A stretch of 25,053 nt of DNA from a virus. How positions within the stretch are numbered: position 1 is the stretch's first letter; every line of letters starts with the position of its first letter. Position numbers and translations under genes: made by a program. The notes beneath the pieces are model-generated. The model worked only from the letters and a program-made list of their open reading frames with translations, had not been told where the DNA came from and did no database searches. The stretch is from positions 1 to 25,053 of the IMG/VR virus record IMGVR_UViG_3300027861_000185. The stretch is one strand, 5' to 3'. Shown here piece by piece: positions 3,070 through 25,053 of the stretch.

Positions 3070-4101
3070 ATGGCCACTAACTACAACACGAATGGCGATC
3101 TGACTCAAAGAACCGCTGTTTATGCTGCAAAGCGTCTTCTGAAGCGCGCCCAAGAGAAAATGATCTTGGAACGTTTCGGGCAGAAAGACCCGCAGCCCCA
3201 AAACAAGGGTAAGACTCGTACCTACCGGCGGTATCATTCGCTGGCGTCTCTTCCCGCAACCGCGCCTTTGGCTGAAGGTGTAACTCCGACCGCGAAGAAA
3301 CTTACGTATTCTGACGTGTCCGTTACTCTTGAAACTTATGGCGATCTCGTGGAATTGACCCGGGAACTGAAGATCTACCATGAAGACCCTGTTTTCAAAG
3401 AAACCTTCAATATCCTCGGCGAACAGCAGGCGGAAGTCGTTGAGCTGATTCGTTGGAATGCGCTGAAAGGCGGAACTAACGTATTCTATGCTAACAACGT
3501 CGCATCTCGCGCTACTGTTGATTCCCCAGCAACACTGTCTGACCTTAAGCGCATCGAGCGTGGATTCATGCGTAATCGCGCAGCGAAGATCACTCGCATC
3601 GTTAAGGCTAGTCCAGCTATCTCCACAGAGCCTATCCAAGACGCCTTTATCCTGTTGGGTCACACCGACACTAAAGCCGACCTGGAAGCTATGTCCGGTT
3701 GGATTCCTGTTGCTAATTACAGTAACAGCATGAAAGCCATGCCTCAAGAAGTTGGAAGCATTGGATGCTATCGCGTTCTCCTGTCTTCCCTCTTTACCGC
3801 ATGGGAAATCGCCGGTGCCTCTGGAACTACCTACTTGTCTGGTGGTGAAGAAGTGTCCGTTGCTGCTAAGTGTGATGTATATCCACTTATCGCTCTCGCC
3901 CGAGATGCTTATGCTATCGTTCCTCTCCAGGGACATGGCTCTACCAAACCGGTAGTTCTGCAACCTAAACCTGCTCCTGGTGATCCTATGGGTCGTAAGG
4001 GTTCAGCAAGTTGGACCGCAGATCAGGCATGCTTGATCCTAACCCAAACCTTCATTGCCCGGTTGGAAGTCGCTGCAAGCGCCGTCCCACCTGGTGAGTA
4101 A
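3070..4101 (+). CDS. Major capsid protein, N4-gp56 family
   Basis: A 343-residue protein that forms the icosahedral shell (HK97-type fold expected for this family). Diagnostic segments are: LAEGVTPTAKKLTYSDV (about 67-83); a strand pair VTLETYGDLVELT (about 85-97); HEDPVFKETFNILGEQQAE (about 104-122); and ALKGGTNVFYAN (131-142), the phrase I most associate with the N4-gp56 capsid family. The C-terminal half contains the expected beta-rich capsid core and ends GSASWTADQACLILTQTFIARLEVAAS, where the late conversion to a 'W..D.A..I' pattern is also typical. AAGGAGG lies six nt before ATG 3070. A Lys/Arg-rich N-terminus (about 20-54) could be an interior arm. Scaffold lies upstream and a terminator downstream of the next gene, consistent with very high expression. 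Confidence 0.92.
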   Translation: MATNYNTNGDLTQRTAVYAAKRLLKRAQEKMILERFGQKDPQPQNKGKTRTYRRYHSLASLPATAPLAEGVTPTAKKLTYSDVSVTLETYGDLVELTRELKIYHEDPVFKETFNILGEQQAEVVELIRWNALKGGTNVFYANNVASRATVDSPATLSDLKRIERGFMRNRAAKITRIVKASPAISTEPIQDAFILLGHTDTKADLEAMSGWIPVANYSNSMKAMPQEVGSIGCYRVLLSSLFTAWEIAGASGTTYLSGGEEVSVAAKCDVYPLIALARDAYAIVPLQGHGSTKPVVLQPKPAPGDPMGRKGSASWTADQACLILTQTFIARLEVAASAVPPGE

Positions 4102-8139: not shown

Positions 8140-11100
8140 ATGCCGATTGCAGTAGAACCAAAAATACCACAGACGACCGTTGGGCCTCCTAATCCACTTG
8201 AAGAACAGGAGGCACTTAGTTATGTGTTCAGCTTCAAGGGTCGAACTGGTGATGTATTGCCAGCAGCAAGTGACTATTCCGCGAGTTTTATCGGTAATGA
8301 CAGTAGTGTTAGTGGCGGCAACGTATCAGCCGCGTTAGATGAGCTTGAGTCTCAGATTGATGGATTGGGCTTTATTTATCAGCCATTAGACACAGGCTTG
8401 ACAAGTATTTCAGGCTTAACAACTGCCGCTGATAAGATGATTTACACGACTGCGCTTGATGTATACACGACTACTGATTTAACATCATATGCAAGGACAT
8501 TGCTCGACGATACTGATGCAGCGACCGCCAGGGGAACACTTGACGCTACAGGCGGAAGGTCAGCGTTGACACAAAATTATATACCAAAGGTTGACGCGAA
8601 CGGTGATTTGATTAACTCATCGGTTACAGACGATGGATCAACTGTTACATTTAGCGGCAATGTTACCATTAACGGAACAACTACCATCGTTGACAGCACA
8701 GTTGTTGCTATTGGTGACTCATTAATGAAGTACGCCAAAGATAACACTGCTTCTGATGTCATCGACATAGGCTGGTATGGCGTTTATGGAAGTGGTGGGG
8801 CAAAGTATTCTGGAGTATTTCGAGATGCGTCAGATGGAAAATTCAGATTTTATTCCGGGCTTGAGGTTGAGCCAACTACAACGGTAGATACTGGCGCAGC
8901 CGGATACACCCAGGCAACCATCATTGCAGCGATTGAATCAAATAGCGTTGCGATAACCGGAGGAACGATTGACGGGTGCAGTTACAACACCCTACAGATG
9001 GATACTGCTTACGGAACTCCATCACATAGCGAAGGTCTTGTCTTCTATGATAATGTCAATAAATGCCTTGCTTATTATAATGACGTACCTGGTTCAACAT
9101 TGCAGATCGGTCAAGAGCTTTGGGTTCGCGTAAAGAATACCAGTGGAGCTGACATCACCAATGGTCAAGTTGTGTACCTCAATGGGCAAGATAGCGGCGT
9201 GCCAACTGTAGCACTAGCGGCTGCTGACCTTTTCTCGACTGCTGTTCCAACACTAGGCTTTGCAACACATCTTATCGCAAACGGCGCAATTGGGCTGATT
9301 ACGGCGTTTGGCACAGTTCGCGATATTGATACCAGTCTTTGCACCGCTGGAGACACACTTTACCTGTCAGAAACCCCGGGCGACTATACTATCGTTGCCC
9401 CTAACTCACCTTCTTATAAGGTTGTACTCGGTTCATGTACCTTGTCCGACGCTTCCAACGGTACAGCACTGGTTGACATCAATCCGCTTTCAAACACTGA
9501 CACCGTTATCAATTTCTGGAATGGTTCAATCTTAGAAGATCATGGTATAACTGTTATTAGTGATGGTGTGACCGTGTCCTGTACGCTTGAGAAGAGTGGC
9601 GGCGGCGATCTAAACCTATTCTTCAATGGCGGGTTTACTTCATTCGATGCGACCCCAACAGCGTCAGTAAATCTCTCAGCCGGAAGCGACACTATTCCGA
9701 CGCTAAACTATGTGTACATTCCTGAAAGTACCGGACTCTTAACAGCCAGCACTTCCTCTTTTCCTGCAACACAACATGTTCCCGTAGCTACGATTCTTTG
9801 CCAGAGTGCCGCTACCGTACAGACAGAAGGTGCCTACAAGGTTCACGCATGGACAGATCATATATCCACATCCAATGATCAAGGACATTTGTCCGACATT
9901 AATAGGTGGATACGTAACCAGAATGCCACATGGTTGTCCGGCATAGTTCCAACATTTAGCGGTACCGGAACTGGTACAGTCGGGTTATCATCAACTTCCG
10001 GCGTTATCCTTCAGTTGCACGAGCACGCATTCCCGACATTTACTGACCCTGCAAACATCTTTGTTGTAAACGATAGTGTGGCTGCTTATACCGAGATTAC
10101 GAACATCCACGACATCGATACAGACTCATTAGGCGCTACACTGAATAACTCCACATTTGGGTTGGTTATTTGGGGTTGTGTCAGTGAAGATACCGGGGAT
10201 TGCAAGTTCTATGCGAATCTTCCTAGTGGTGGGTATGGATCAGGCAAGCCGGACCTCGTTCGAGCAGACGCAGACAAATATCAAGATTTCTCTATTCCTA
10301 CCGAGTTCAAAGGCACTGGATTCCTCGTGTATCGACTGGTAATAAGTCGCAACGCTGGAGGTACGGCATCAACGCTCTATACTGGTGGTTCTGGTGACGA
10401 CCTTCGAGGAAGTACTCCCGGGTCTGGTGCGGGCGGTAGTTCTGCCGGTATTGCAATAACAGAGTTTGCGGATAGCCAATTTGACATCTACAACATTACC
10501 GATAATACGAAGCAGATAAACTTCAGTGCTGCTTCAATCACTACCGGCAATACTCGCACTATTACGATGCCTGATGCTGACGTTACCCTGATGCAAGGAG
10601 CTACGAACCTCACCACGCAATACCGCGGCGTGTTTGTTAATGCTGCGGGTGAGGTTACTGAGAGTAGTAGCATTGTTACGGATGCAGACGGACATCTTAC
10701 AATAGATGGCGTAACTATAAGAGGGGGTAATAACAATGTCTTTATGGGTTCTGCGACGGGTGACTTAGTTACTGGCGGATCAAATACCGCAGTCGGTAAC
10801 TTTGCTATGGCCTCCGCATCCTCTGGAACTGCTAACTCAGCATTCGGATATGTCGCACTGAATGCTGTCACTGGCTCCAATAACACTGCTTTTGGTAATA
10901 GTTCATTACGTAGCCTAACATCCGGCTCAACAAACTCTGCGTTTGGCCTTCAGGCAGGGCGATATATTTCCGGTGGATCTACTGCGCACACAACAGGGAT
11001 GAACTCTGTGTTTTTCGGCGCGAACTCTTACCCATTAGCTGATGGTCAAACCAACCAAATAGTGATAGGCTACAACGCGACCGGCGCGGGATCAAATACA

Positions 11101-11346
11101 GTTACCTTGGGTAATGATTCCATCGTCTCAACACTACTTAAAGGCAACGTCCTCATCGGCACAACCACCGCAGGCGCTAGTAAGCTGGTGGTGAATGACG
11201 ACTCCATACAGATCAACACAAGCAAGACACCCGCCAGCGCTACCGCAACCGGCACGCAGGGGCAGGTGGCGTGGGATTCGTCGTACGTTTATGTATGCAC
11301 GGCAACTGATACCTGGAAACGGGCAGCACTTTCAACATGGACATAA
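8140..11346 (+). CDS. Large tail fibre protein with YadA-like repeats
   Basis: A 1068-residue protein starting at ATG 8140 with GAGGA upstream. The N-terminal part holds phrases typical of phage fibres: YVFSFKGRTGDVLPAASDYS (28-47), LTSISGLTTAADKMIY, and TSYARTLLDDTDAATARGTL. A middle section (about 315-445) contains VRVKNTSGADITNGQVVYLN and a beta-rich domain common in fibre proteins. Around residues 862-955 are YadA-head-like repeats (NNNVFMGSATG, SNTAVGNFAM, NSAFGYVALN, NNTAFGNSSL, NSAFGLQAG), which form trimeric left-handed beta rolls in adhesins. The C-terminus ends GTQGQVAWDSSYVYVCTATD, a frequent fibre cap. It probably forms a trimer and contacts the host. No endosialidase-type self-cleaving chaperone domain is evident. 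Confidence 0.8.
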   Translation: MPIAVEPKIPQTTVGPPNPLEEQEALSYVFSFKGRTGDVLPAASDYSASFIGNDSSVSGGNVSAALDELESQIDGLGFIYQPLDTGLTSISGLTTAADKMIYTTALDVYTTTDLTSYARTLLDDTDAATARGTLDATGGRSALTQNYIPKVDANGDLINSSVTDDGSTVTFSGNVTINGTTTIVDSTVVAIGDSLMKYAKDNTASDVIDIGWYGVYGSGGAKYSGVFRDASDGKFRFYSGLEVEPTTTVDTGAAGYTQATIIAAIESNSVAITGGTIDGCSYNTLQMDTAYGTPSHSEGLVFYDNVNKCLAYYNDVPGSTLQIGQELWVRVKNTSGADITNGQVVYLNGQDSGVPTVALAAADLFSTAVPTLGFATHLIANGAIGLITAFGTVRDIDTSLCTAGDTLYLSETPGDYTIVAPNSPSYKVVLGSCTLSDASNGTALVDINPLSNTDTVINFWNGSILEDHGITVISDGVTVSCTLEKSGGGDLNLFFNGGFTSFDATPTASVNLSAGSDTIPTLNYVYIPESTGLLTASTSSFPATQHVPVATILCQSAATVQTEGAYKVHAWTDHISTSNDQGHLSDINRWIRNQNATWLSGIVPTFSGTGTGTVGLSSTSGVILQLHEHAFPTFTDPANIFVVNDSVAAYTEITNIHDIDTDSLGATLNNSTFGLVIWGCVSEDTGDCKFYANLPSGGYGSGKPDLVRADADKYQDFSIPTEFKGTGFLVYRLVISRNAGGTASTLYTGGSGDDLRGSTPGSGAGGSSAGIAITEFADSQFDIYNITDNTKQINFSAASITTGNTRTITMPDADVTLMQGATNLTTQYRGVFVNAAGEVTESSSIVTDADGHLTIDGVTIRGGNNNVFMGSATGDLVTGGSNTAVGNFAMASASSGTANSAFGYVALNAVTGSNNTAFGNSSLRSLTSGSTNSAFGLQAGRYISGGSTAHTTGMNSVFFGANSYPLADGQTNQIVIGYNATGAGSNTVTLGNDSIVSTLLKGNVLIGTTTAGASKLVVNDDSIQINTSKTPASATATGTQGQVAWDSSYVYVCTATDTWKRAALSTWT

Positions 11347-11705: not shown

Positions 11706-13922
11706 GTGCCAGGAATTATACTCGACAATTTCAGTGGGATGATACCAAAGCTGGACAAGCGCAATTTGCCTCCAGAAGCGGCACAGAACGCGCACAATGT
11801 AAATATCGTAGGCGGTAAACTGTCGCCTATTAATGTTCCGTCTCCATTTAAGGTTCTGCATGATCCTGACACCGGAAAAATGAAGAGTGGTATTCCAGCC
11901 GGTAATATTATCAGTATTGAAGAACCTGTACCTCCTGTTGTTGCTGAGAGGATTAAACTGTTTAGGCCGATGGATTGGACTGGAACCGTATTTACTGTTG
12001 GTCTATGGGTTGGTTATTATGACCAAAACAATGATCACAGAATCCAAAGTGAGACGCCATCTATTGTAGCCGGATCAGGAGAATGGGAATATACAGAAGA
12101 TGGAATAATATGGAGAGCTAAGATAAACAAAAGTATTCTTACTGCTTATCAAGGCTTTTATTATGAATCATACGGCCTTAAGTTTGGAATGTCATTTGCG
12201 ATAGATGATAAATACTATGGCGGTCCTGATGCTGTTTACAATTTTTCAGACGATGGAACATTAGCCTGGTCTTCTCCGGATTGGCCGGACTTCAGTATGC
12301 CGATAACTGCACCTATTGACTATTCTGACTACGATGATGCTCCAGGTGATGGTGGATCAGTTTATGCAGGAGAGCGGTATACATACGGACATCTTCAGCT
12401 CGTATCCGTCAACGCTCCAAGGCCATTAGCAGTAGTTGACCGTACCATTGACCATAACGGGCAACCGTTGGCATATGACGGAAGCTCTATAAGCGTTGAC
12501 CTAATCGAGGCAGGAACGATTGAGTTTCATTTCAAGTGCAATTATCAGCGTAATACTCAAGTTTTTGTCAACTACGTTACCTCACTAATGGATCAGCGAA
12601 CCGCAGCGGGCGTTGCTGATATTGCTCTTTCTGGAGCTATTACACGAGTTGACATGAAGGAGATTGAGTACGGTGGAAACGATATACCGGCAACTGGATT
12701 GGTTCGTCTTGTAAATGCTGCTGGACAATTCGAGGACGTTGCGTACACATCTTACGGTGTGATTGATGATGTTTATCAGTTTACAGTCTCCACAACGCTT
12801 ACCTATTCATATGCTGAAGATGATGAGATACTTGTTATCGACAGAACGGTAGTAGGCAAAGAAGGTCCAGCGAGCGAACTTAGCGAATTAACCACAGTTG
12901 ACCCTGGCGATCTATTAAAGCTGACTGCAACTATAGACGACGGTTACTATCGGCAGATCATTTACCGAAGCGCTCAAGATGGTGATTTCCGCGTGCTTGA
13001 AGATGAACTTGAGTCGAACACCTTCATTGACACCTTTATTGAGAACCCGGGAGAGTCATTACCTCCAAACGGTAACTATCCTCATACAACATTGGCTGCT
13101 GCTATGGAAGGTAGCGTTGTCCTTGGCGGTCATACTGCAATGATCTTTGATGACGATGAAGTGCGTCCGAGCGAACCTTATAAGCAATGGGTTTACCCTG
13201 AAGAGTATGCATTCCCGCTTGATGCCCCATTTGTTGCGGCTGCATCGTTTGGAAGTACGGCTGTTATTTTCACTGATACAAATCCGATTACCGGCGAAGT
13301 TGGAAAGGTATTCTCTGTATCTGGACAAAATCCATCTCATTTGAACCGCATGCTAATTGCTGACGACAAGCCATTACTTAACAAGCGCTCACTGTGCATG
13401 ACTAATGGAACCGCGTTTTATGCAACTACAGATGGACTTATGGCCGTATCTCCTGGAGGTATCCAGAACATTACCGAAGGCTTGTTTACTCGCTCTCAGT
13501 GGCTTACATATAAGCCATCGTTTATGAGTGCATGGACTGCCGATAACTCAATCTTTGTCATTGGGCTATCAGAAACAAACCCTATTCATTTCAGATTTGA
13601 CCTTGGCGAGGGTGGCGGATTGGCTACATTTACAACATATGATTCATTCTCTGATGCCGACATGTACTGGAAAAGTAAGACATTTGTTATTCAAGGTCTC
13701 GTTAGTTTTAGGAATATCAAGGTCGTTGCCGATGGATATCCGGTTGAGGTTACCCTTATCGGCGATTGCGGAGTTGCAAAGAAAACTATCTCTGTACCAG
13801 ATTCAAGCTCTTGTATGATACCTCGTATGCGTCGATGTCGTGAATGGGAGGTTGAAGTTCGCGGAAGGTCTACAGTAAGCCGCGTGGCAATCGCAACCAG
13901 TTCAGGGGAGCTTGATGTTTAA
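11706..13922 (+). CDS. Large conserved virion (tail/nozzle-like) protein
   Basis: A 738-residue protein starting at GTG 11706, seven nt after AGAGG. The opening, GMIPKLDKRNLPPEAAQNAHNVNI followed by GGKLSPINVPSPF, is characteristic of a widespread phage virion protein of about 600-800 residues. Later family-typical segments include an exterior beta domain with VGKEGPASELSELTTVDPGD (about 385-405), IYRSAQDGDFRVLEDELESN (about 419-438), an unusually conserved 'HTAMIFDDDEVRPSEPYKQW' (about 477-496), and a propeller-like section with AFYATTDGLMAVSPGGIQNI (about 569-588). Proteins of this type lie between fibre and ejection genes and may form the tail nozzle or hub of short-tailed phages; that exact role is inferred. 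The C-terminus has a beta section with several Cys. Confidence 0.65.
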   Translation: MPGIILDNFSGMIPKLDKRNLPPEAAQNAHNVNIVGGKLSPINVPSPFKVLHDPDTGKMKSGIPAGNIISIEEPVPPVVAERIKLFRPMDWTGTVFTVGLWVGYYDQNNDHRIQSETPSIVAGSGEWEYTEDGIIWRAKINKSILTAYQGFYYESYGLKFGMSFAIDDKYYGGPDAVYNFSDDGTLAWSSPDWPDFSMPITAPIDYSDYDDAPGDGGSVYAGERYTYGHLQLVSVNAPRPLAVVDRTIDHNGQPLAYDGSSISVDLIEAGTIEFHFKCNYQRNTQVFVNYVTSLMDQRTAAGVADIALSGAITRVDMKEIEYGGNDIPATGLVRLVNAAGQFEDVAYTSYGVIDDVYQFTVSTTLTYSYAEDDEILVIDRTVVGKEGPASELSELTTVDPGDLLKLTATIDDGYYRQIIYRSAQDGDFRVLEDELESNTFIDTFIENPGESLPPNGNYPHTTLAAAMEGSVVLGGHTAMIFDDDEVRPSEPYKQWVYPEEYAFPLDAPFVAAASFGSTAVIFTDTNPITGEVGKVFSVSGQNPSHLNRMLIADDKPLLNKRSLCMTNGTAFYATTDGLMAVSPGGIQNITEGLFTRSQWLTYKPSFMSAWTADNSIFVIGLSETNPIHFRFDLGEGGGLATFTTYDSFSDADMYWKSKTFVIQGLVSFRNIKVVADGYPVEVTLIGDCGVAKKTISVPDSSSCMIPRMRRCREWEVEVRGRSTVSRVAIATSSGELDV

Positions 13923-15860: not shown

Positions 15861-18011
15861 ATGGCTGGTTTTGAAAGACGAAGGAAAGGTCAACGAGTAG
15901 TAAGTAACATCATGGAACAGGGTGGTGATTCATCGCAACTCAATCGCATGGCACCTCGCGTATTTGCTCCGACAAGCGCGGATGCAGGACGTATGCAGCG
16001 AATCAATGAAGGCTCTCAACGCGACATGCTTGAGAAGCGCACACTCGATACTCGCCGCTTTAATCAGCAGAATATTGAAGATGCCGCACGAATGGCGGAA
16101 AGTAATCGCCGTTTTGATATTGGCAGAAGTGATGTACAGGACAGATTCGACGCAACAAGAGGTGACGCAAATCGACGATTTGACCTTGGACGCGAAGACA
16201 CTCTTAAAAACCGCGACGACATCAACCGCCGCTTTGATATTGGCCGTGGTGATACTCAGCGTAGGTTTGACGCTACACGCCGCGATACGCTTATGGGCAA
16301 ATACAGACCTGAAGACGTTGATGTTTATCTTGGTGGTTCTGGTGGAGTTCCTCGTACTGCTGAAGATACTGACCCTGGTTTCAATCCAGCGAATCGCGAG
16401 GTTGGAGCGCAACTGCAAACATTACCTCCACAGCCAATCGGTATGCGTCGTCCAGATCAAACAGGCGGCACTCAGTTACGCCCAAGGCAGGCGGCATCAA
16501 GCACAAAGCCTATGGACTTCACTAAAAACATGGAAGCATTGTCAACTGATCTTGAAAAACTTGGGTATCCAGCAGATCAATTATTTGATCCAGACAGCGG
16601 AGATGCCACGCGTCAGATGAAGTCTATCGCTCAGTCAATGAATAAGAGTATTGCAGGTGGTATGCCTCAGAATGAAGCATTGCTAAACGCTATTGCAGGA
16701 AGCGGTATTAAAAACCAAGGACAGTTTGATAAAGAGAGTTACGAGGGAGCAAAGGAATTTATCAAAGCTGGAAAAGGAAGTGGCGTTGCAGGATTTCTTC
16801 AGAGCGATGATTACAAGACGGCACTAAAGGAAGTGTCAGACTATGAACAGAATCAATCACAACAACAAGGACAACCTCGAAGTTTCACAGGTGACGGGCC
16901 GGTTCGTTCAGGTCAAGCGGGTCCAATTGCCGGATTGCGCAGGCCATCGCCGACACAAGCACAACCTCCAGTTACTCCACAGGCTCCAGCAGTCGCGCCG
17001 ACTCCCGCAACTCCTGTAATCGGTCGCCCCGTAGTCCCTGAGCTTCCATCAGGCGCACAGAGAGAGCGTGGTTCAGCGATACGTGAGCGCGGCGACTTAG
17101 CGGCGTTTGAAGGTATGAATGCTCGCGTTGGCAATAAAAACAATGTGCCGGGCGTATTCGTTCAAGATCCGGGTACAGGCAAGCAGCAATTTATCGGCGA
17201 GAATGAACTTAAGCAGCACTTTGGCGAAGACTTTGAGCTTGGCGCACAATCAGCGCAGACAGGTGAAGACGGAGCGATTTCATTCCGCGCTAATATGGTT
17301 AAACTTCCAGGTGGCGATGACGGAACTACAAGCGTAGCAGATCAGCGCGCCGCATTTGGTCCAACTCAAGCGCAGACACCAACGGCAGCAGGTCAGCAAG
17401 TTGGCATGCAGCGTCCGGCAACGGCTACAGGTGGACAAGCTGACCAATCAACTCTTTCTCGTTTTGATAGGGTTAATCAGAAGCTTGGAGGAAAGTTAGT
17501 TGAAGAAACATTAGAAGCAATAGATAGGGGCGATATTGATGACAAGCGCGCAGCGTCTCCAAAAATAAGAGAAATGCTTGCTAATCCTGACAGATATGGC
17601 GCTGAGATGACTAACAAATACTTAGATGCTGTCAACTTCTGGGAGCAACCTGTACAGTCAGACCCACAGAAGCGTAAGGTTGAAATGGAAACTCCACCAG
17701 AACAGCGCGCTAAGGAAAAGCGCGATCGTTGGGCAAATCGATATATGAGTAAGGTTATAACTGATGCTGCCGGAAGTGGAAATAAAGCATATGGAAGAAG
17801 CAAGGTCGGATACAAAAAGGCTTTAAATTTCTACAAACAGCAAAATCCAAACAAAACAGAACGTGACTTTGAGCTTGAGTTAATCGAGCTACAAGGAGGG
17901 TTGCGCGAGCCGGTTCTAAGATACTGGAGTGATAAGTCTGAGTTAGGAGATGTTGAGATATCAGCAGGTGAAGGTATACGAAAGAGAAGTCTTAAAGCTA
18001 GAGGGAAGTAA
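15861..18011 (+). CDS. Internal virion protein candidate with hendecad coiled coil
   Basis: A 716-residue protein without signal peptide, membrane segment or Cys-rich motif. The N-terminus is basic (GFERRRKGQR). Residues 65-142 carry repeated RRFD(I/L)GR.D and RFDATR.D units; the Phe residues fall at 67, 85, 96, 107, 125 and 136, spacings of 18, 11, 11, 18 and 11, which is the hendecad (11-residue) periodicity of some long coiled coils. A Gln-rich stretch and a Pro/Gln/Ala-rich linker (about 345-400) follow, then mixed helical regions with QAGPIAGLRRP and similar GMRRP/GMQRP phrases, and a basic C-terminus. It precedes the giant polyvalent gene by two nt, and both follow one promoter. An internal, ejected virion protein is the best inference; a linker or structural spike is possible. 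Confidence 0.55.
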   Translation: MAGFERRRKGQRVVSNIMEQGGDSSQLNRMAPRVFAPTSADAGRMQRINEGSQRDMLEKRTLDTRRFNQQNIEDAARMAESNRRFDIGRSDVQDRFDATRGDANRRFDLGREDTLKNRDDINRRFDIGRGDTQRRFDATRRDTLMGKYRPEDVDVYLGGSGGVPRTAEDTDPGFNPANREVGAQLQTLPPQPIGMRRPDQTGGTQLRPRQAASSTKPMDFTKNMEALSTDLEKLGYPADQLFDPDSGDATRQMKSIAQSMNKSIAGGMPQNEALLNAIAGSGIKNQGQFDKESYEGAKEFIKAGKGSGVAGFLQSDDYKTALKEVSDYEQNQSQQQGQPRSFTGDGPVRSGQAGPIAGLRRPSPTQAQPPVTPQAPAVAPTPATPVIGRPVVPELPSGAQRERGSAIRERGDLAAFEGMNARVGNKNNVPGVFVQDPGTGKQQFIGENELKQHFGEDFELGAQSAQTGEDGAISFRANMVKLPGGDDGTTSVADQRAAFGPTQAQTPTAAGQQVGMQRPATATGGQADQSTLSRFDRVNQKLGGKLVEETLEAIDRGDIDDKRAASPKIREMLANPDRYGAEMTNKYLDAVNFWEQPVQSDPQKRKVEMETPPEQRAKEKRDRWANRYMSKVITDAAGSGNKAYGRSKVGYKKALNFYKQQNPNKTERDFELELIELQGGLREPVLRYWSDKSELGDVEISAGEGIRKRSLKARGK
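16050..16286 (+). repeat. Protein-level 11-residue repeat block
   Basis: Codes for residues 64-142 of the 716-residue protein. Units NRRFDIGRSD, DRFDATRGD, NRRFDLGRED, NRRFDIGRGD and RRFDATRRD recur. Codons differ between units (for example CGCCGTTTTGAT and CGACGATTTGAC), so the protein pattern rather than the DNA is conserved. Confidence 0.75.
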
Positions 18012-18013
18012 AT

Positions 18014-21000
18014 ATGGGCTCATACGCAGATAAATTAAATAAAGCCAGTAATCTTGTTGATACTGAAATACAGCAGGAGGCTGCGCGCGTTGGCGCTAGA
18101 AATCGTGAAGATCGCAATTTCTTAACACGTACTGCTATAGGCGGAGTTAATCAAGCAATTGCATCTGGTTACGGAATGAAGGGCGCTTTTCATAGCCTTA
18201 TGGACGACAAAGTGTCAAGAGATGAGGCAGAGCGAGAGGCTCGCAGTTATCAAAGAATTGCAGCAGAAAACCCCCCGGACGTTGAGGGATTCTTACCCAA
18301 CGAACAAGATACTGCCGCGCTTGATAGTCCGCTAAATCTTGGACAGTTTGCTATCGAACAACTAGGGCGATCAATACCATCGATGGGTGTTCGTGCCGCT
18401 GGAGCTGCTGCTGGAGCAGGTTTAGGCACGTTAGTTGGCGGACCTGCTGGAACTATCGCCGGGTTAAGTGCTGGAACTGTTGGTGGGTTTGCAGGCGGAT
18501 TACTTTCATCAGGGGCTTTGCATACGGGAGATATGTGGCTTGATCTTAAAGAACAAGGAATCGACGCGCCCGGCAGTTCGTTAGCATTCGGCATGGCGTC
18601 TGGTGGAATAGAAAATATTATTGGTGGCGCTCCTGTTGTCAACAAACTATTAGGTATCCCGGGCTTACGTAATGCACTAACAAAAGCGTCAGCAAAAGGA
18701 GGCATCAGAAGCGCTGCTAAGGTATTGTGGGATGTAGGTACAGGCGTCGTAAAGACTTCTGGCGAAGAGGGATTTGAGGAAGGATTTCAAGAGGTTCTTG
18801 GTATGATGAATCGAGACCTCAATGACCCTAATTTTAAGTGGGACCGTGAAAAATTTATTCAAGTAGTCGAGGCTGCTGGCGGCGGCGCTGTCATCGGTGG
18901 TATGCTTGGTGGAGCTGGTAGCATTAAGCAGAGTGTTGCACAAAGGCTAAATAGGCCAATTCCAGTAGACAGCACAACTGGAGAAGATATCAAAGACGTT
19001 GAATCTCCAGAAAGGATAGCTGCAAATGATCGACTTATAAAAAGATCACAGGAAGAATTTACGAGATTTGCTGAAAATAACTCAGAAGTAATTGACAATC
19101 CAGAGTTTCAAACAGAAAATATTGACCTTCTTAATAGGCTGTCAATCGCTAGTGGCATGAGTGACCGTCACGAATTTAACAACATTAGCTCAGAGCTAAA
19201 GACCCGCGTACTTGAGTTCCAGACGCGTCCGGCAGAGCGCTATGTTCCGCCCGTATCACAGGAAGCGCAACCTGATTTAGCGAGTCCACAACTTACCCAA
19301 GATGAAATGCTTGGAGCTCAAGAACAGGCACCAGCACAGGTTGAACAAGAAGTTGCCCCTATTGCTGATGAAGCTCCACAGACACCAGTTGCACCTCAAG
19401 AAATGAGTGACCTTGAAAGAGGCATCAGAGACGAACAGCAGCAACTTATCGAACAGAAGGCGATTGAAGCGCAGACTCGTAAGGATGAGGCTCAGGAAGT
19501 AGAAAAGGTAGGAGAATTGGAAGAGCAAAAAGCCCTACCTATTCCAAATGCTGAAACTCAAATCCTCACTAAAACTGGAAAGCCATTTAAGGCTCCCGCT
19601 GCTGCTAAACGTGCTGCAAAGATCGCCGGTATTGACGCCACTAATGTTGTTCAGGTTGAAGGCGGCTATGCGGTTGAGAGGGGACCAGCTGTTGAAGAAA
19701 TTGGAAAAATTCTCTATCCAGAATCAAAGATACAAACCGAGAAAGTAACAAAGCCGGTAAAAACTGAGGCTAAAACTGAAGTTGCTGCTGAAGAAAAAGT
19801 AACAACGGCTAATATTCCGAAATCCCTAAAAGAAGCATCGCAAAAAGATATATACGACAGAGGAAAGCAGCCAGGAATTGATTACCGCGCTTTACCTAAT
19901 GTCGTTTCTTTACAGTTACGTGACCTTGATAGTAATCCTATTAGGGATGGATTACTTGCTGAATCCTATGATGGCAGTGAGGAAAGTGCAGCAAAGGCAG
20001 TTGTTAAGTTATTTGAAGATGCAAACGAGCGTGGCGTTGATTATAGTAGGCGAGAAACAGCAGTAGTCGCTACTGACGCGAATGGAGTTGCAAAGTACTT
20101 CATTAACGCAGATCAGACCAATGACAAGATTCGAGTTATGCCTATCGAGCGAATGCCTTGGGCAAGAAAGAAATGGGGACTTGATGATAAAAAGAAATCT
20201 GAAATAATTAAGCAAAAGCCAAAGACTATTTTAACTAAAGATGAATACCAAACGATCAGGGAGTGGGAAGATATATCTGATTTTTATGCAAATAAACAGA
20301 AAAATACTGCTGATATCGTAAAACAGCATATTGAGGAAAATTTCGGTCCAACAAAGATAGTATTTGATAAACATGAAACAGATAATGTCTATATTAAATC
20401 AGTTGAATTTGTTCCAAAAAAAGTCGCATTTAAGCCTAATGGATATTGGGATGTAAAAATAGTAACACCGCAAGGGATTGAATCAATCCAGCTTGGTATT
20501 CGAGATGCTGGACCAAACGCTGAGTTTGCCGCTGCTATGGGGCTTAATCGAATGATGTTGGACAAGGCTATTGATAGAGATGAAGATTTTGACGCTTGGG
20601 GTGCTATTGAATCATTTGCGTCGATAGGTATAAAGCAGAAAATAGACTTTAAGCTTAGAGGTCATGGGATATCTGATATTTTAAATCCAAAACAGCAGGC
20701 AAGGCAGGTGCAACCCACCAAAGGCGAGCAGATCAAAGCCAAGGTTAAGGCTAAACGTGAGGCTGAGAAGGCAAAAGAAACTGAAATAAAGAAGCCAAGA
20801 AAGAAAGATACCTACGTTGACCGCCGCGCTAAAGTTTCAAAAGAATCTCCATATCGTGAAGGTTGGGATTATTTGAAGAGAGGCATTAAGCCAGAAGGCA
20901 AAGAACTTCCTGCATTCTTCAAGAAGCGCGGAAATGCTGCATTCAAGGGTGACGAAAACTCATTGTCACTTGATCAATATGTAGCCGAAATGGCTGAATG

Positions 21001-24000
21001 GGATGATGCTACCGGGCAATTAATCAAGCGTATGATGAAGGATACCAATGATCAACTTGAGATCATCGACGCGGTTCTTTCATCTCATAGAGATCATTTA
21101 TCGCAAGGCATGAAAGAAGAGTTTGCTAAAGAAGGTGAATTATTCCCTCAAACCAATCCATTTGACCAGGCAATAAACATTGCAAAGCAGATTCAGGAAA
21201 CATTCAAGAAGCACGAGAAACCATCGACAAAGGGTCAACTTGCAGAGAATCACGCTCTTAATGAGTCTGAAACTGTAAGGACGCTTATTCTGGATGAAAA
21301 GATAACTCCTGAAGCAGCAACAGAAAGGCTGAATAAAGCATTGGCAGACGCTCAGAAGTTTGCAGAAGAAAAGGCAATTCCTCAGCAGCGACAAGAAGAG
21401 ACTTTATTCGACGTTACTCCGTTTGACGAACTTGATCTTGGTGATACAGCCGTTGACGATTCTTTTGATTTTGGAGCAAATGTTGAGGAAGAGGTAAAGC
21501 CGAAGTTGACAAAAGGCGAGCAAATAAAGGCTAAGGTTAAAGCGAAGAAGGAAGCGGCCAAAAAGCCGCCAGCAGATAAGGTGGGTATAAATCCAGATCA
21601 GGCAATAAGGATAGCCGCAGACAGTATAGAAGAACTGCGCGGTCAAGATGTTTTCCGCGTACTAGAAACGTATCCAGATAATGCTGAAGAGATAGCTGAA
21701 TACATAAAGAAGAATCGCCCGGATTTAGCAGAAACGGTAAATGAAGACATGGCGGAACTGAAGGATGACAAAGAGCGCGCAGAAGCAAGGCATGATGTTT
21801 ATATAAATCCAAAAGGTGGCGAAAGTCGAAAGATTAATACAGAGCCACTGTCTCTTGATGATGCTAAGAAACTAAGAAATAGCAAACCTTTGAGGATCAG
21901 AGGGCTTATTTCTATTCAGAAAGTCGAAACTAAGCCCGCAGCGAAGGCCGAGGCGGAAAGTAAGAAATCTTCCGAAAAAGTAAAAGAAGTTACCAAGGCT
22001 GAAAAGAAATCAGAAGAGATTGATAGTGTAGAATCTTACAATGCAGTCATTAAGCGCATAGATTCAGGCGATATAACAGCCGATGAACTACGAGCTGCAT
22101 TCAAATCATTCACTGAAAATCGTCAGGCATTTGTTGACTTTCTTAAAACTAAGAATAAAAAGCAGATTGCCGCCGCCTCTGGATACTTCAGAGATGATAT
22201 GAAGAAGGATAGATTGATAGAGGTTGCTGTAGATAGGTTCGCACAGGACTTCATCCCGCAGGCACCGTCTGTTAGCGGGATGACCTCATTCCAGATGGCA
22301 ATGTTTGAAAGCACCACAGATGCCGTTAATCGACAAATCAAAGATCTTACAGATGAAGACATTGCAAGGATTTCAGAGAAAACAAAAGAGGTTAAAAGAG
22401 AGCGCGAAGCTCAAAAGCAAAAGCGCAAGGATGCGGTAAAGGATCCTAAAACATTGACCGACTTCCGTATTGCACTTGATGAAGGCGTTGAGCTTACTGA
22501 AGAACAGCAGGCAATGTATGATGACTTGGCAACAGAAGCAAGGCGTGAACGAACCAAAAAGCGCAAAGAAGCCCGCCAAGCCAAGCTAACTGAAGCAGTT
22601 GGTGATTTAGGAATGTCAATGGTTGAGGCATATCACGACAAGAAAGATATTCCGATGTTTGTTGTTCAGCAAGAAAAGCGTGTAGAGCGCGATGAATTTA
22701 ACACCCTTAAATCACTCGCCAAAGCCAACGACGGATATTGGAGCAGGTACCGAGGCGGAAGAGCCAAGCCAGGATTCCAGTTTACAAGCCAGGAAAATGC
22801 GCAGGCGTTTATTGATGCCGCCACAGATGGAGACAAAGCGACGGCAACAGAAACCATTAAAGAGAAAACAGGATCCGAGAAGCTGAAGGATACGGCCGAG
22901 CGCATTATGGAACGCGCGGTAGATAAGCGGGACCAGGACCGCAGAACAAACACTGCACGCCAAGCAGGCATGGCTGCAAGTTCTATTGCCGATGCTGAGT
23001 CCGACATTGCGATTGCTAAGACTATGCAGAATATCGCTAAATCAATTGACGATGGAACTGCTGTTCACCTTACGGGGTTAAGAGATAAGACGCAGGTAGA
23101 GACGATAAAGAGCATAATGAGGCGTGCAAAACTTGACTACGCTCTAGCAAACGATATCAGCACAGTTTCCAACGAGTACAAGGCACTTCCTACGTGGGAC
23201 TCTAAGTACATGGAGTTCGTAAAGTATCCCGAATACCAGATGCACGCCGACTCTATAAACAGATTCGCAAACGAGCTCGACAACGTTGGTGGAGCTAAAT
23301 TAATGGCAAACAGGCTGCGCAAGATTCACAAAAGCCTTAGCGCCAGCGATAAGCAAATGTACACTTTTGACAGCGTTCGTGATCTTGAGATCATCGACAA
23401 GATGAAAAAGAAGCTAAAAGGCGAGTCGATCATGTGGCTAATCGACAATGATTCTGCCAATATCGGACGATTGAACAGGATGGATGTACTTAACCTTCAG
23501 GAACTCCGCGCTGCATTGCGTGAATTTGCATCACTGAAAGAGGATGCCAAGGGCGAGGACCCGATAGCAAAACTTGAGCGCGACATCAAGACAGACAAGT
23601 TTGACGGCCTTGACTTCTTCCCGACTCCGAAGCCCCTTGCAAATAGAATGGTCGAGATGGCTGATATTGAGCCAGGCATGAAGGTTCTTGAGCCAAGCGC
23701 CGGAAAAGGCGACATTGCCCAGTCAATCCAGGACGCACACCCAGACGCCGAGGTCACGGCCGTTGAAGTATCAGGGAAACTCCGCGAGATCATCAAGGCG
23801 AAGGGCTTGAACCTTTCAGAAGATCGCGACTTTTTAGAGCATGAAGGCGAGTACGACCGGATTGTTATGAACCCACCATTTTCAAAAAACAAGGACGTAG
23901 AGCATGTAAGACACGCCTACAGCCTTCTAAAGCCAGGCGGCAAGATAATCGCAATAGTCAGCGAACACCCGTTTTTCGCGAACGACAAAGTATCAAAAGA

Positions 24001-25053
24001 ATTCCGCGAATGGTTTGAAGAGGTTGGCGTTTTTGATGAAAAGATGGAGGGCGCATTCCAGGGACCAGACGCATTCAGGAAGACAGGCGTAAATACAAGG
24101 CTGATTGAGATTGAAAAGCCTGCTGGTGATGTAAAGTTCAGCGTCAAGGAGTTTAACAGCGTTGACGACATAAAAAGTAAGTGGGAGTCCCAGGTTGACG
24201 ATATTTTCATAAGTGAAGATGACAGATATATCCGCCTTAATAATCTAGTCGTTGCAAAAGGCGACAGAAAGCAAGGCGTTGGCACTGCAATAATGGAAGA
24301 CATTGTTTCTTATGCCGACCAGTCAGGAAAGGTAGCAAGACTTACTCCCGCTCTCAAGGATGATCGAAAAGGAACAACGTCGAAAGCACGACTGAAGAAA
24401 TTTTACAAGCGATTCGGGTTCGTCGAGAACAAGGGAAGAAATAAAGATTTCATCTATAACGCTGATGAGATGTACAGAGATCCCAAGGGCGATATAAAGT
24501 TCAGCATCGACGGAGCAGCAACCCGCGCACCTATCACGTCCGAGAATGTTGGCGATGAGTTTCCTGGTGCTACTGTAACTAACGACGGAAAGAACTACAC
24601 GGTCGAACTTCCTTCTGGTGCGAAGTTCAATATCACGATGACTAAAGAGATACCGACCGACGTAGCAACTATCATGCGCGACTATGGCGTAACTCGTGAA
24701 AAAGCTCAAATAATGGCAAAACAAGGCGCGAAGGGTGCAACGGTATCGGCTGGCGCAACTGTAGAGCTTTCAGACGGGCAGGAATTGAGCCTTGAAGATA
24801 TCAACATTATAATCCAAGAGTCTCGCGGCGGTATCGGCACTGTGAGACATGAGGGCTTGCACGTTGCAAAACAGCTTGGCTTCTTTGATAGTGCGTACGG
24901 CAAAAGCTTATGGGACTCCCTCATGCTTGAATATGGCAGTGAAGAGAACATAGCAAACGCCCGGGAAGTCTGGACGGGTCAAAACGGACTATGGGGCAAG
25001 TTGGTTCAATGGTTTAATCGCCTTAAGTTGCGCCTTGGTTTTGAGATTAACCC
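18014..25053 (+). CDS. Giant polyvalent phage protein: membrane-like N-terminus, DarB-like region, N6-methyltransferase, GNAT, metallopeptidase (3' end outside window)
   Basis: The frame from ATG 18014 (AGAGGGAAG upstream) has no stop before the window end: at least 2346 residues. Visible parts: Gly-rich helices (about 127-166 and 286-303) around EEGFEEGFQE (251-260); a Glu/Gln linker; TKTGKPF to GGYAVERG (519-557), a small recurrent phage module; an AT-rich unknown region (about 590-880); Lys-rich linkers with a repeated KGEQIKAKVKAK; a helical domain (about 1341-1460); GYWSRYRGGRAKPGFQF (1574-1590); RTNTARQAGM (1644-1653), similar to DarB-type antirestriction proteins; a methyltransferase (about 1860-2030) with VLEPSAGKGD (1891-1900) and NPPF (1953-1956); GNAT (about 2045-2158) with RKQGVGT (2085-2091); and a zincin with HEGLH (2279-2283). 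Probably packaged and injected. Motifs are seen; delivery and antirestriction are inferred from P1 DarB and related giant proteins. Confidence 0.88.
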   Translation, partial: MGSYADKLNKASNLVDTEIQQEAARVGARNREDRNFLTRTAIGGVNQAIASGYGMKGAFHSLMDDKVSRDEAEREARSYQRIAAENPPDVEGFLPNEQDTAALDSPLNLGQFAIEQLGRSIPSMGVRAAGAAAGAGLGTLVGGPAGTIAGLSAGTVGGFAGGLLSSGALHTGDMWLDLKEQGIDAPGSSLAFGMASGGIENIIGGAPVVNKLLGIPGLRNALTKASAKGGIRSAAKVLWDVGTGVVKTSGEEGFEEGFQEVLGMMNRDLNDPNFKWDREKFIQVVEAAGGGAVIGGMLGGAGSIKQSVAQRLNRPIPVDSTTGEDIKDVESPERIAANDRLIKRSQEEFTRFAENNSEVIDNPEFQTENIDLLNRLSIASGMSDRHEFNNISSELKTRVLEFQTRPAERYVPPVSQEAQPDLASPQLTQDEMLGAQEQAPAQVEQEVAPIADEAPQTPVAPQEMSDLERGIRDEQQQLIEQKAIEAQTRKDEAQEVEKVGELEEQKALPIPNAETQILTKTGKPFKAPAAAKRAAKIAGIDATNVVQVEGGYAVERGPAVEEIGKILYPESKIQTEKVTKPVKTEAKTEVAAEEKVTTANIPKSLKEASQKDIYDRGKQPGIDYRALPNVVSLQLRDLDSNPIRDGLLAESYDGSEESAAKAVVKLFEDANERGVDYSRRETAVVATDANGVAKYFINADQTNDKIRVMPIERMPWARKKWGLDDKKKSEIIKQKPKTILTKDEYQTIREWEDISDFYANKQKNTADIVKQHIEENFGPTKIVFDKHETDNVYIKSVEFVPKKVAFKPNGYWDVKIVTPQGIESIQLGIRDAGPNAEFAAAMGLNRMMLDKAIDRDEDFDAWGAIESFASIGIKQKIDFKLRGHGISDILNPKQQARQVQPTKGEQIKAKVKAKREAEKAKETEIKKPRKKDTYVDRRAKVSKESPYREGWDYLKRGIKPEGKELPAFFKKRGNAAFKGDENSLSLDQYVAEMAEWDDATGQLIKRMMKDTNDQLEIIDAVLSSHRDHLSQGMKEEFAKEGELFPQTNPFDQAINIAKQIQETFKKHEKPSTKGQLAENHALNESETVRTLILDEKITPEAATERLNKALADAQKFAEEKAIPQQRQEETLFDVTPFDELDLGDTAVDDSFDFGANVEEEVKPKLTKGEQIKAKVKAKKEAAKKPPADKVGINPDQAIRIAADSIEELRGQDVFRVLETYPDNAEEIAEYIKKNRPDLAETVNEDMAELKDDKERAEARHDVYINPKGGESRKINTEPLSLDDAKKLRNSKPLRIRGLISIQKVETKPAAKAEAESKKSSEKVKEVTKAEKKSEEIDSVESYNAVIKRIDSGDITADELRAAFKSFTENRQAFVDFLKTKNKKQIAAASGYFRDDMKKDRLIEVAVDRFAQDFIPQAPSVSGMTSFQMAMFESTTDAVNRQIKDLTDEDIARISEKTKEVKREREAQKQKRKDAVKDPKTLTDFRIALDEGVELTEEQQAMYDDLATEARRERTKKRKEARQAKLTEAVGDLGMSMVEAYHDKKDIPMFVVQQEKRVERDEFNTLKSLAKANDGYWSRYRGGRAKPGFQFTSQENAQAFIDAATDGDKATATETIKEKTGSEKLKDTAERIMERAVDKRDQDRRTNTARQAGMAASSIADAESDIAIAKTMQNIAKSIDDGTAVHLTGLRDKTQVETIKSIMRRAKLDYALANDISTVSNEYKALPTWDSKYMEFVKYPEYQMHADSINRFANELDNVGGAKLMANRLRKIHKSLSASDKQMYTFDSVRDLEIIDKMKKKLKGESIMWLIDNDSANIGRLNRMDVLNLQELRAALREFASLKEDAKGEDPIAKLERDIKTDKFDGLDFFPTPKPLANRMVEMADIEPGMKVLEPSAGKGDIAQSIQDAHPDAEVTAVEVSGKLREIIKAKGLNLSEDRDFLEHEGEYDRIVMNPPFSKNKDVEHVRHAYSLLKPGGKIIAIVSEHPFFANDKVSKEFREWFEEVGVFDEKMEGAFQGPDAFRKTGVNTRLIEIEKPAGDVKFSVKEFNSVDDIKSKWESQVDDIFISEDDRYIRLNNLVVAKGDRKQGVGTAIMEDIVSYADQSGKVARLTPALKDDRKGTTSKARLKKFYKRFGFVENKGRNKDFIYNADEMYRDPKGDIKFSIDGAATRAPITSENVGDEFPGATVTNDGKNYTVELPSGAKFNITMTKEIPTDVATIMRDYGVTREKAQIMAKQGAKGATVSAGATVELSDGQELSLEDINIIIQESRGGIGTVRHEGLHVAKQLGFFDSAYGKSLWDSLMLEYGSEENIANAREVWTGQNGLWGKLVQWFNRLKLRLGFEIN
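20717..20764 (+). repeat. Internal linker repeat, copy 1 (TKGEQIKAKVKAKREA)
   Basis: Residues 902-917 of the giant protein. Copy 2 is residues 1166-1181. They differ at one residue (Arg/Lys) but use different synonymous codons at most degenerate positions. Confidence 0.85.
21509..21556 (+). repeat. Internal linker repeat, copy 2 (TKGEQIKAKVKAKKEA)
   Basis: Residues 1166-1181 of the giant protein, 264 residues after copy 1. Both copies sit at the start of Lys/Ala-rich linkers between predicted domains. Confidence 0.85.
24125..24145 (+). repeat. Inter-domain motif GDVKFSV, copy 1
   Basis: Residues 2038-2044, between the methyltransferase and GNAT domains. Copy 2 matches it at 18 of 21 nucleotides. 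Confidence 0.75.
24488..24508 (+). repeat. Inter-domain motif GDIKFSI, copy 2
   Basis: Residues 2159-2165, between the GNAT and metallopeptidase domains. With copy 1 it brackets the GNAT domain exactly. Confidence 0.75.

Follow-up and report, generated by a model that had tools for sequence, protein, structure and literature searches.

The window, that is, the whole stretch of 25,053 bp analysed here, coincides exactly with a linear IMG/VR contig and ends within a giant open reading frame (ORF). The giant ORF stands at the end of a structural block, downstream of genes for the capsid, virion structural proteins, a probable tail spike and an internal virion protein (Table 1). It opens with an ATG placed 2 nt after the TAA of the upstream gene and runs on the plus strand from 18014 to 25051, 2346 codons in which re-reading found no in-frame stop up to the record end. 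Because the record ends with the window, the "at least 2346" residues of the initial annotation is correct, and the true stop lies outside the data. A stop-free run of this length has a chance probability of about 1e-61 at the base composition of the window, and codon-position GC is gene-like (GC1/2/3 = 0.57/0.38/0.40). The encoded protein contains no cysteine and has long charged stretches; the charged linkers that had been described between its domains are real and are also poor in glycine. The three enzyme motifs are located where they had been placed, NPPF at residue 1953 (23870–23881), RKQGVGT at residue 2085 (24266–24286) and HEGLH at residue 2279 (24848–24862), the first being preceded by FFPTP at residue 1868 and LEPSAGKGDIA at residue 1892. 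The window shows no recognisable gene for a tail tube or tape measure, so the phage is probably short-tailed. The closest capsid protein among isolated phages is distant (35% identity, Pseudoalteromonas phage Y3, a phage proposed as 'Poorviridae'; PMC11654794). A much closer relative, G009 (IMG/VR 3300035144_000004, a contig of 60,965 bp), was reached via the capsid gene.

Table 1. Features of the window and domains of the giant protein.
Feature	Residues	Position	Strand	Remarks
Major capsid protein		3070..4101	+	phrog_1357, Phage_capsid_4
Probable tail spike		8140..11346	+	Shared with G009 over the first 73 aa and one 36-aa piece only
Internal virion protein		11706..13922	+	phrog_511; 72% identity in G009
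Gene directly upstream of the giant ORF	716 aa	15861..18011	+	First ~147 aa 53% identical in G009
Shine-Dalgarno-like GAGGG		18001-18005	+	8 nt before the ATG of the giant ORF
Giant ORF	at least 2346 codons	18014..25053	+	3' end cut by record end
N-terminal domain	1-315	18014..18958	+	Gly/Ala-rich, mildly hydrophobic; 36% identity to G009 giant
Middle region	316-1293	18959..21892	+	Glu/Pro-rich and Lys-rich linkers, other segments
Helical extension	1294-1860	21893..23593	+	Conserved throughout the family; AlphaFold2 prediction good
Gamma-class adenine-N6 DNA methyltransferase core	1861-2036	23594..24121	+	FFPTP, LEPSAGKGDIA, NPPF
GNAT acetyltransferase domain	2040-2165	24131..24508	+	RKQGVGT, YKRFGFVENKGRNKDF
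Probable zincin metallopeptidase	2170-2346	24521..25051	+	HEGLH at aa 2279; right edge cut by record end

The best characterised part of the giant protein is a methyltransferase module of about 740 residues (1294–2036), composed of the helical extension and the methyltransferase core. Profile searches matched it to MTS (E 1.2e-6) and, over residues 1311–2041, to phrog_15406 'DNA methyltransferase' (E 1e-190); against PDB sequences, the profile retrieved only an adenine-specific DNA methyltransferase and a weak rRNA methyltransferase match. An AlphaFold2 model of the module reached a mean pLDDT of 85.5, and its best Foldseek matches were type I HsdM subunits and M.TaqI; the helical extension had no separate fold match among the matches listed. 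A gamma-class methyltransferase with a TP motif and NPP[Y/F] has been described for polyvalent proteins (PMC5512222), and the module, with its FFPTP and NPPF, is of this class.

The module is widespread. By tblastn it matched 240 phage records, mostly of Vibrio and Pseudomonas phages; full-length matches covered residues 1338–2036 at 31–36% identity, and weaker ones the methyltransferase core only. Used as a single-sequence query against viral contigs, the whole protein returned no relative; finding relatives there required a module alignment as the query. Viral contigs, prokaryotic genome contigs and isolated phages together yielded 88 full-length copies in ORFs of 710 to 5578 residues, which were reduced to 54 at 65% identity. 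Across these 54 distinct proteins, most of which are giants of 2,700–5,600 residues, the module is 27–36% identical to that of the window; NPPF is invariant and FPTP and LEPSAG are nearly so. The giants include those of phages H66 (3787 aa), FGH (2634), SSIP-1 (2319), 1.205.O (3130), 1F273_PE002 (3763), Y3 (3421) and X14 (2740). The module-bearing ORFs of L019, L017 and L078, with 5578 and 5340 residues, are among the largest phage ORFs here, those of L017 and L078 being truncated on the 5' side. The module also occurs as a standalone protein, of 706 residues in Cellulophaga phage phi17:2 (L009, 8614–10734) and of 846–956 residues in cyanobacterial, planctomycete and Burkholderia contigs (L094, L096, L102). 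In Salisaeta icosahedral phage 1 (SSIP-1; L004) it lies in gp43, a protein recorded as structural; as this icosahedral virus stands outside the tailed phages in classification, the module is used in more than one group of viruses.

The GNAT domain follows directly after the module. RKQGVGT fits the acetyl-CoA-binding R/Q-x-x-G-x-G/A motif of the GNAT fold, and the domain matches Acetyltransf_7 with an E value of 7e-6 (26.7 bits, just below the curated cut-off of 27). A homologue in L043, after the same module, scores above that cut-off, and another close one is present in Serratia phage Parlo. Scanning viral contigs with the GNAT domain returned 408 relatives, and 36 of the 83 GNAT-bearing ORFs examined are at least 1500 residues long.

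The HEGLH block is harder to assign. It has no match in Pfam, PHROG or PDB sequences, and tblastn against isolated phages retrieved nothing. Around the motif, about 175 residues align with the G009 giant at 53% identity; HE.LH and SEE.IA are among the conserved positions, the latter corresponding to the glutamates of SEENIA downstream of HEGLH in the window protein. The strict pattern HExxH...ExxA proved too narrow for a survey (5 of 101 large ORFs), and HExxH compared with shuffled sequences was used in its place: of 101 distinct large ORFs, 50 contain it, versus 5.25 in shuffles. An alignment made by MAFFT with GNAT rows mixed in misaligned the zincin block and was kept from folding; in a two-row AlphaFold2 model, the succession of helices and strands is compatible with the zincin pattern, in which a three-stranded sheet precedes the HEXXH helix and a helix bearing a Glu ligand comes after it, but the pLDDT is 50 and no fold match is significant. 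On motif and conservation the block is probably a zincin, with the fold unsupported by the model.

Upstream of the module the protein is less well conserved. The N-terminal domain carries EEGFEEGFQE at residue 251 and a 19-residue hydrophobic peak at residue 281. The motif E[AG]xxExxQE lies near residues 200–340 in 14 of 76 giants versus 2.2 in shuffles; examples within a Gly/Ala-rich block are found at residues 338 of L008, 331 of L038 and 253 of L098. This recurrence suggests an element common to the N-termini of the giants, possibly a shared element of delivery. For most of the middle region no relatives were detectable. A 13-residue linker, TKGEQIKAKVKAK, occurs there twice, at residues 902 (20717–20754) and 1166 (21509–21546), the copies being 264 codons apart and 82% identical in DNA.

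The initial annotation took the ORF for a polyvalent phage protein. This reading is borne out by a methyltransferase and a GNAT domain recognised by profile, a conserved HExxH block and adjoining late and virion genes. A 2017 study (Iyer et al., PMC5512222) described the polyvalent class, zincin, GNAT and methylase domains included. Pfam detects no LPD domain in the visible 2346 residues; LPD5 and LPD1 are present in the G009 counterpart. The suggestion that the domain combination may be undescribed did not hold, as at least four other giants combine methyltransferase, GNAT and HExxH, namely the Parlo protein and the IMG/VR giants L244, L250 and L199, the last in the order of the window. The Parlo protein, annotated 'DarB-like antirestriction protein' (3764 aa), thus resembles the window protein in combining the three in one giant, and L043 has methyltransferase and GNAT without HExxH. 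These four giants also rule out that the GNAT/HEGLH arrangement is unique to the window. Outside the common domains, the proteins of Parlo, L043, L199, L244 and L250 show low identity to that of the window, and their other domains differ. The window protein therefore joins an already described class; this is largely expected, and the kind of system is not new.

What the comparison with G009 adds is the exchange of the giant's centre. The structural genes of G009 match those of the window one by one, the capsid at 87%, the internal virion protein at 72% and most others at 24–67% identity. The spike matches over only 73 and 36 residues despite the 87% capsid identity, which indicates that the receptor-binding part has been exchanged too. 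Scans with the internal virion protein, the N-terminal domain and the zincin block each returned this 61-kb contig as the sole relative. The G009 giant is complete at 2974 residues, with further genes downstream of it. Two parts are common to it and the window giant, the HEGLH block at 53% identity and the N-terminus at 36% over ~315 aa; where the window has methyltransferase and GNAT, the G009 giant carries LPD5, LPD1 and two further HExxH motifs. The three HExxH motifs of this protein (P0002) stand at residues 1226, 1447 and 1751; the last only is related to that of the window, and the similarity of the zincin block to the second region is not significant. In a second capsid relative, G010, the methyltransferase module is found instead. 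With the ends kept and the centre replaced in G009, the centre of the giant is probably exchangeable between syntenic phages. The G009 protein runs 1156 residues beyond the point where the window ends, and the full gene of the window phage is therefore probably about 3,500 codons long. Hydrophobic stretches lie in this C-terminal part (peak 1.47), for which tblastn in isolated phages found one environmental phage.

Relatives of the giant protein have been recorded in virions. Pseudomonas phage H66 gp60 (3787 aa) is annotated 'verified by mass spectrometry as part of the virion', and SSIP-1 gp43 is annotated 'structural protein'. H66 gp60, F116 p59-60 and phiC725A_54, the last a very large F116-like homologue, represent the Hollowayvirus giant virion protein and carry the same methyltransferase module, 47% identical to that of the window over the core and 31% over the extension. 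The H66-type giant also resembles that of the window in position, closing the structural block ahead of the lysis genes, whereas it has no detectable similarity to the N-terminus, the GNAT domain or the HEGLH block of the window protein; in the F116-like L091 the module is followed by LPD23 and LPD3. In phage JC1, a 4515-residue 'DarB-like' protein ranks among the leading proteins of purified virions (51 unique peptides; PMC9144972). It has the same late-gene position and is a positional and functional analogue of the window protein, not an established homologue; the phrog_511 gene is common to the window phage and the JC1 group. By analogy with these relatives, we infer that the window giant is delivered in virions.

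The most likely product of the ORF is thus a giant polyvalent protein of the ejection type, from a phage with a probably short tail, a reading to which we assign a probability of roughly 0.8. The protein would be made late, packed into the head and threaded into the cell as loosely linked domains, with the N-terminal block engaging the envelope. Passage across the envelope can reasonably be inferred from the richness of the N-terminus in Gly and Ala and from the precedent of the N4 virion RNA polymerase gp50, whose payload is an RNA polymerase, unlike that of the window protein. Once inside, the methyltransferase would methylate adenines on the incoming genome and so shield it from host restriction enzymes, the GNAT domain would acetylate a host protein, and the zincin might free or mature domains. 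Packaging and delivery would fall to the constant ends, with the swapped centre as the payload. Such a protein is probably important to the phage.

The zincin could also act earlier. The giant may be a precursor polyprotein, which the zincin or a prohead protease would cut before or during head maturation so that fragments alone are packaged and injected. P1 DdrB, whose MPTase is C-terminal, is cleaved to 76 kDa prior to packaging (PMC5512222); HExxH is enriched in the large ORFs of the class, with three in G009, and the charged linkers would serve as cut sites. On the other hand, N4 vRNAP, ArdC and TraC1 are transferred unprocessed despite an MPTase domain (PMC5512222), and the zincin fold is unsupported by the model. 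We regard processing of this kind as a serious though minority possibility.

Transfer in the virion is itself not a necessity for the module. The 706-residue standalone modules of Cellulophaga phages indicate that it can work without virion delivery and, together with the standalone proteins in cellular contigs, are consistent with a giant that is not packaged and acts in the producing cell, for example by modifying phage DNA before packaging. Against this stand the relatives recorded in virions (H66, SSIP-1) and the Gly/Ala-rich N-terminus that recurs in giants, which make action confined to the producing cell improbable.

The comparison with P1 DarB, which the initial annotation had invoked, holds as a functional analogy and fails as orthology. 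Like the window protein, P1 DarB is a large late protein of a phage and has an adenine methyltransferase of the EcoKI/TaqI-like class. The similarity is restricted to the methyltransferase core (E 0.002–0.003); a profile of the module had no match in P1 DarB, nor did the helical extension. The DarB dyad is defined by a C-terminal SF2 helicase and an N-terminal LPD36 (PMC5512222). No helicase was found in the window protein or in the post-methylase segments of relatives (none in 10 of 10), a motif search found a Walker A and DExH pair in no large ORF, and LPD36 is not among the Pfam matches of the 2346 residues. A true DarB orthologue, with its helicase beyond the window end, would agree with the shared methyltransferase class and with the DarB-like annotation of the Parlo methyltransferase–GNAT giant. 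In DarB, however, the SF2 helicase comes directly after the methylase, where the window protein has GNAT; the complete G009 counterpart has no SNF2 helicase, and P1 DarB matches the core alone at an E value of about 0.003. Orthology is thus very improbable, although the window protein may work like DarB in protecting DNA.

An assembly artefact fusing separate genes can be dismissed as scarcely credible: the frame does run into the end of a single metagenomic contig, the only one from which it is known, and GC3 differs between the gene halves (0.33 versus 0.49; not significant by circular shift, 51/470), yet in G009 both ends and the regions homologous to those of the window follow the window's order within a single unbroken frame of 2974 codons, which speaks against a frameshift artefact, and dozens of relatives have single frames.

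The ejection-type reading extends to a more speculative proposal, which we consider rather doubtful at present. The module would be a helicase-free, entry-coupled DNA methylation machine in which the helical extension replaces the target-recognition and translocation parts of DarB and type I enzymes, and it would form an exchangeable cassette of payload, with the ends of the ejection giants acting as a dedicated chassis for delivery. If so, closely related phages would deliver different enzyme sets. The constant ends and exchanged centre make this idea of a delivery chassis with a swappable payload testable, and the finding is of most use in showing a centre exchanged among phages that are close relatives. 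Giant injected phage proteins have so far been known mostly from annotation. The present case points to a widespread adenine methyltransferase module without the DarB helicase and could aid the annotation of hundreds of very large 'hypothetical' phage ORFs.
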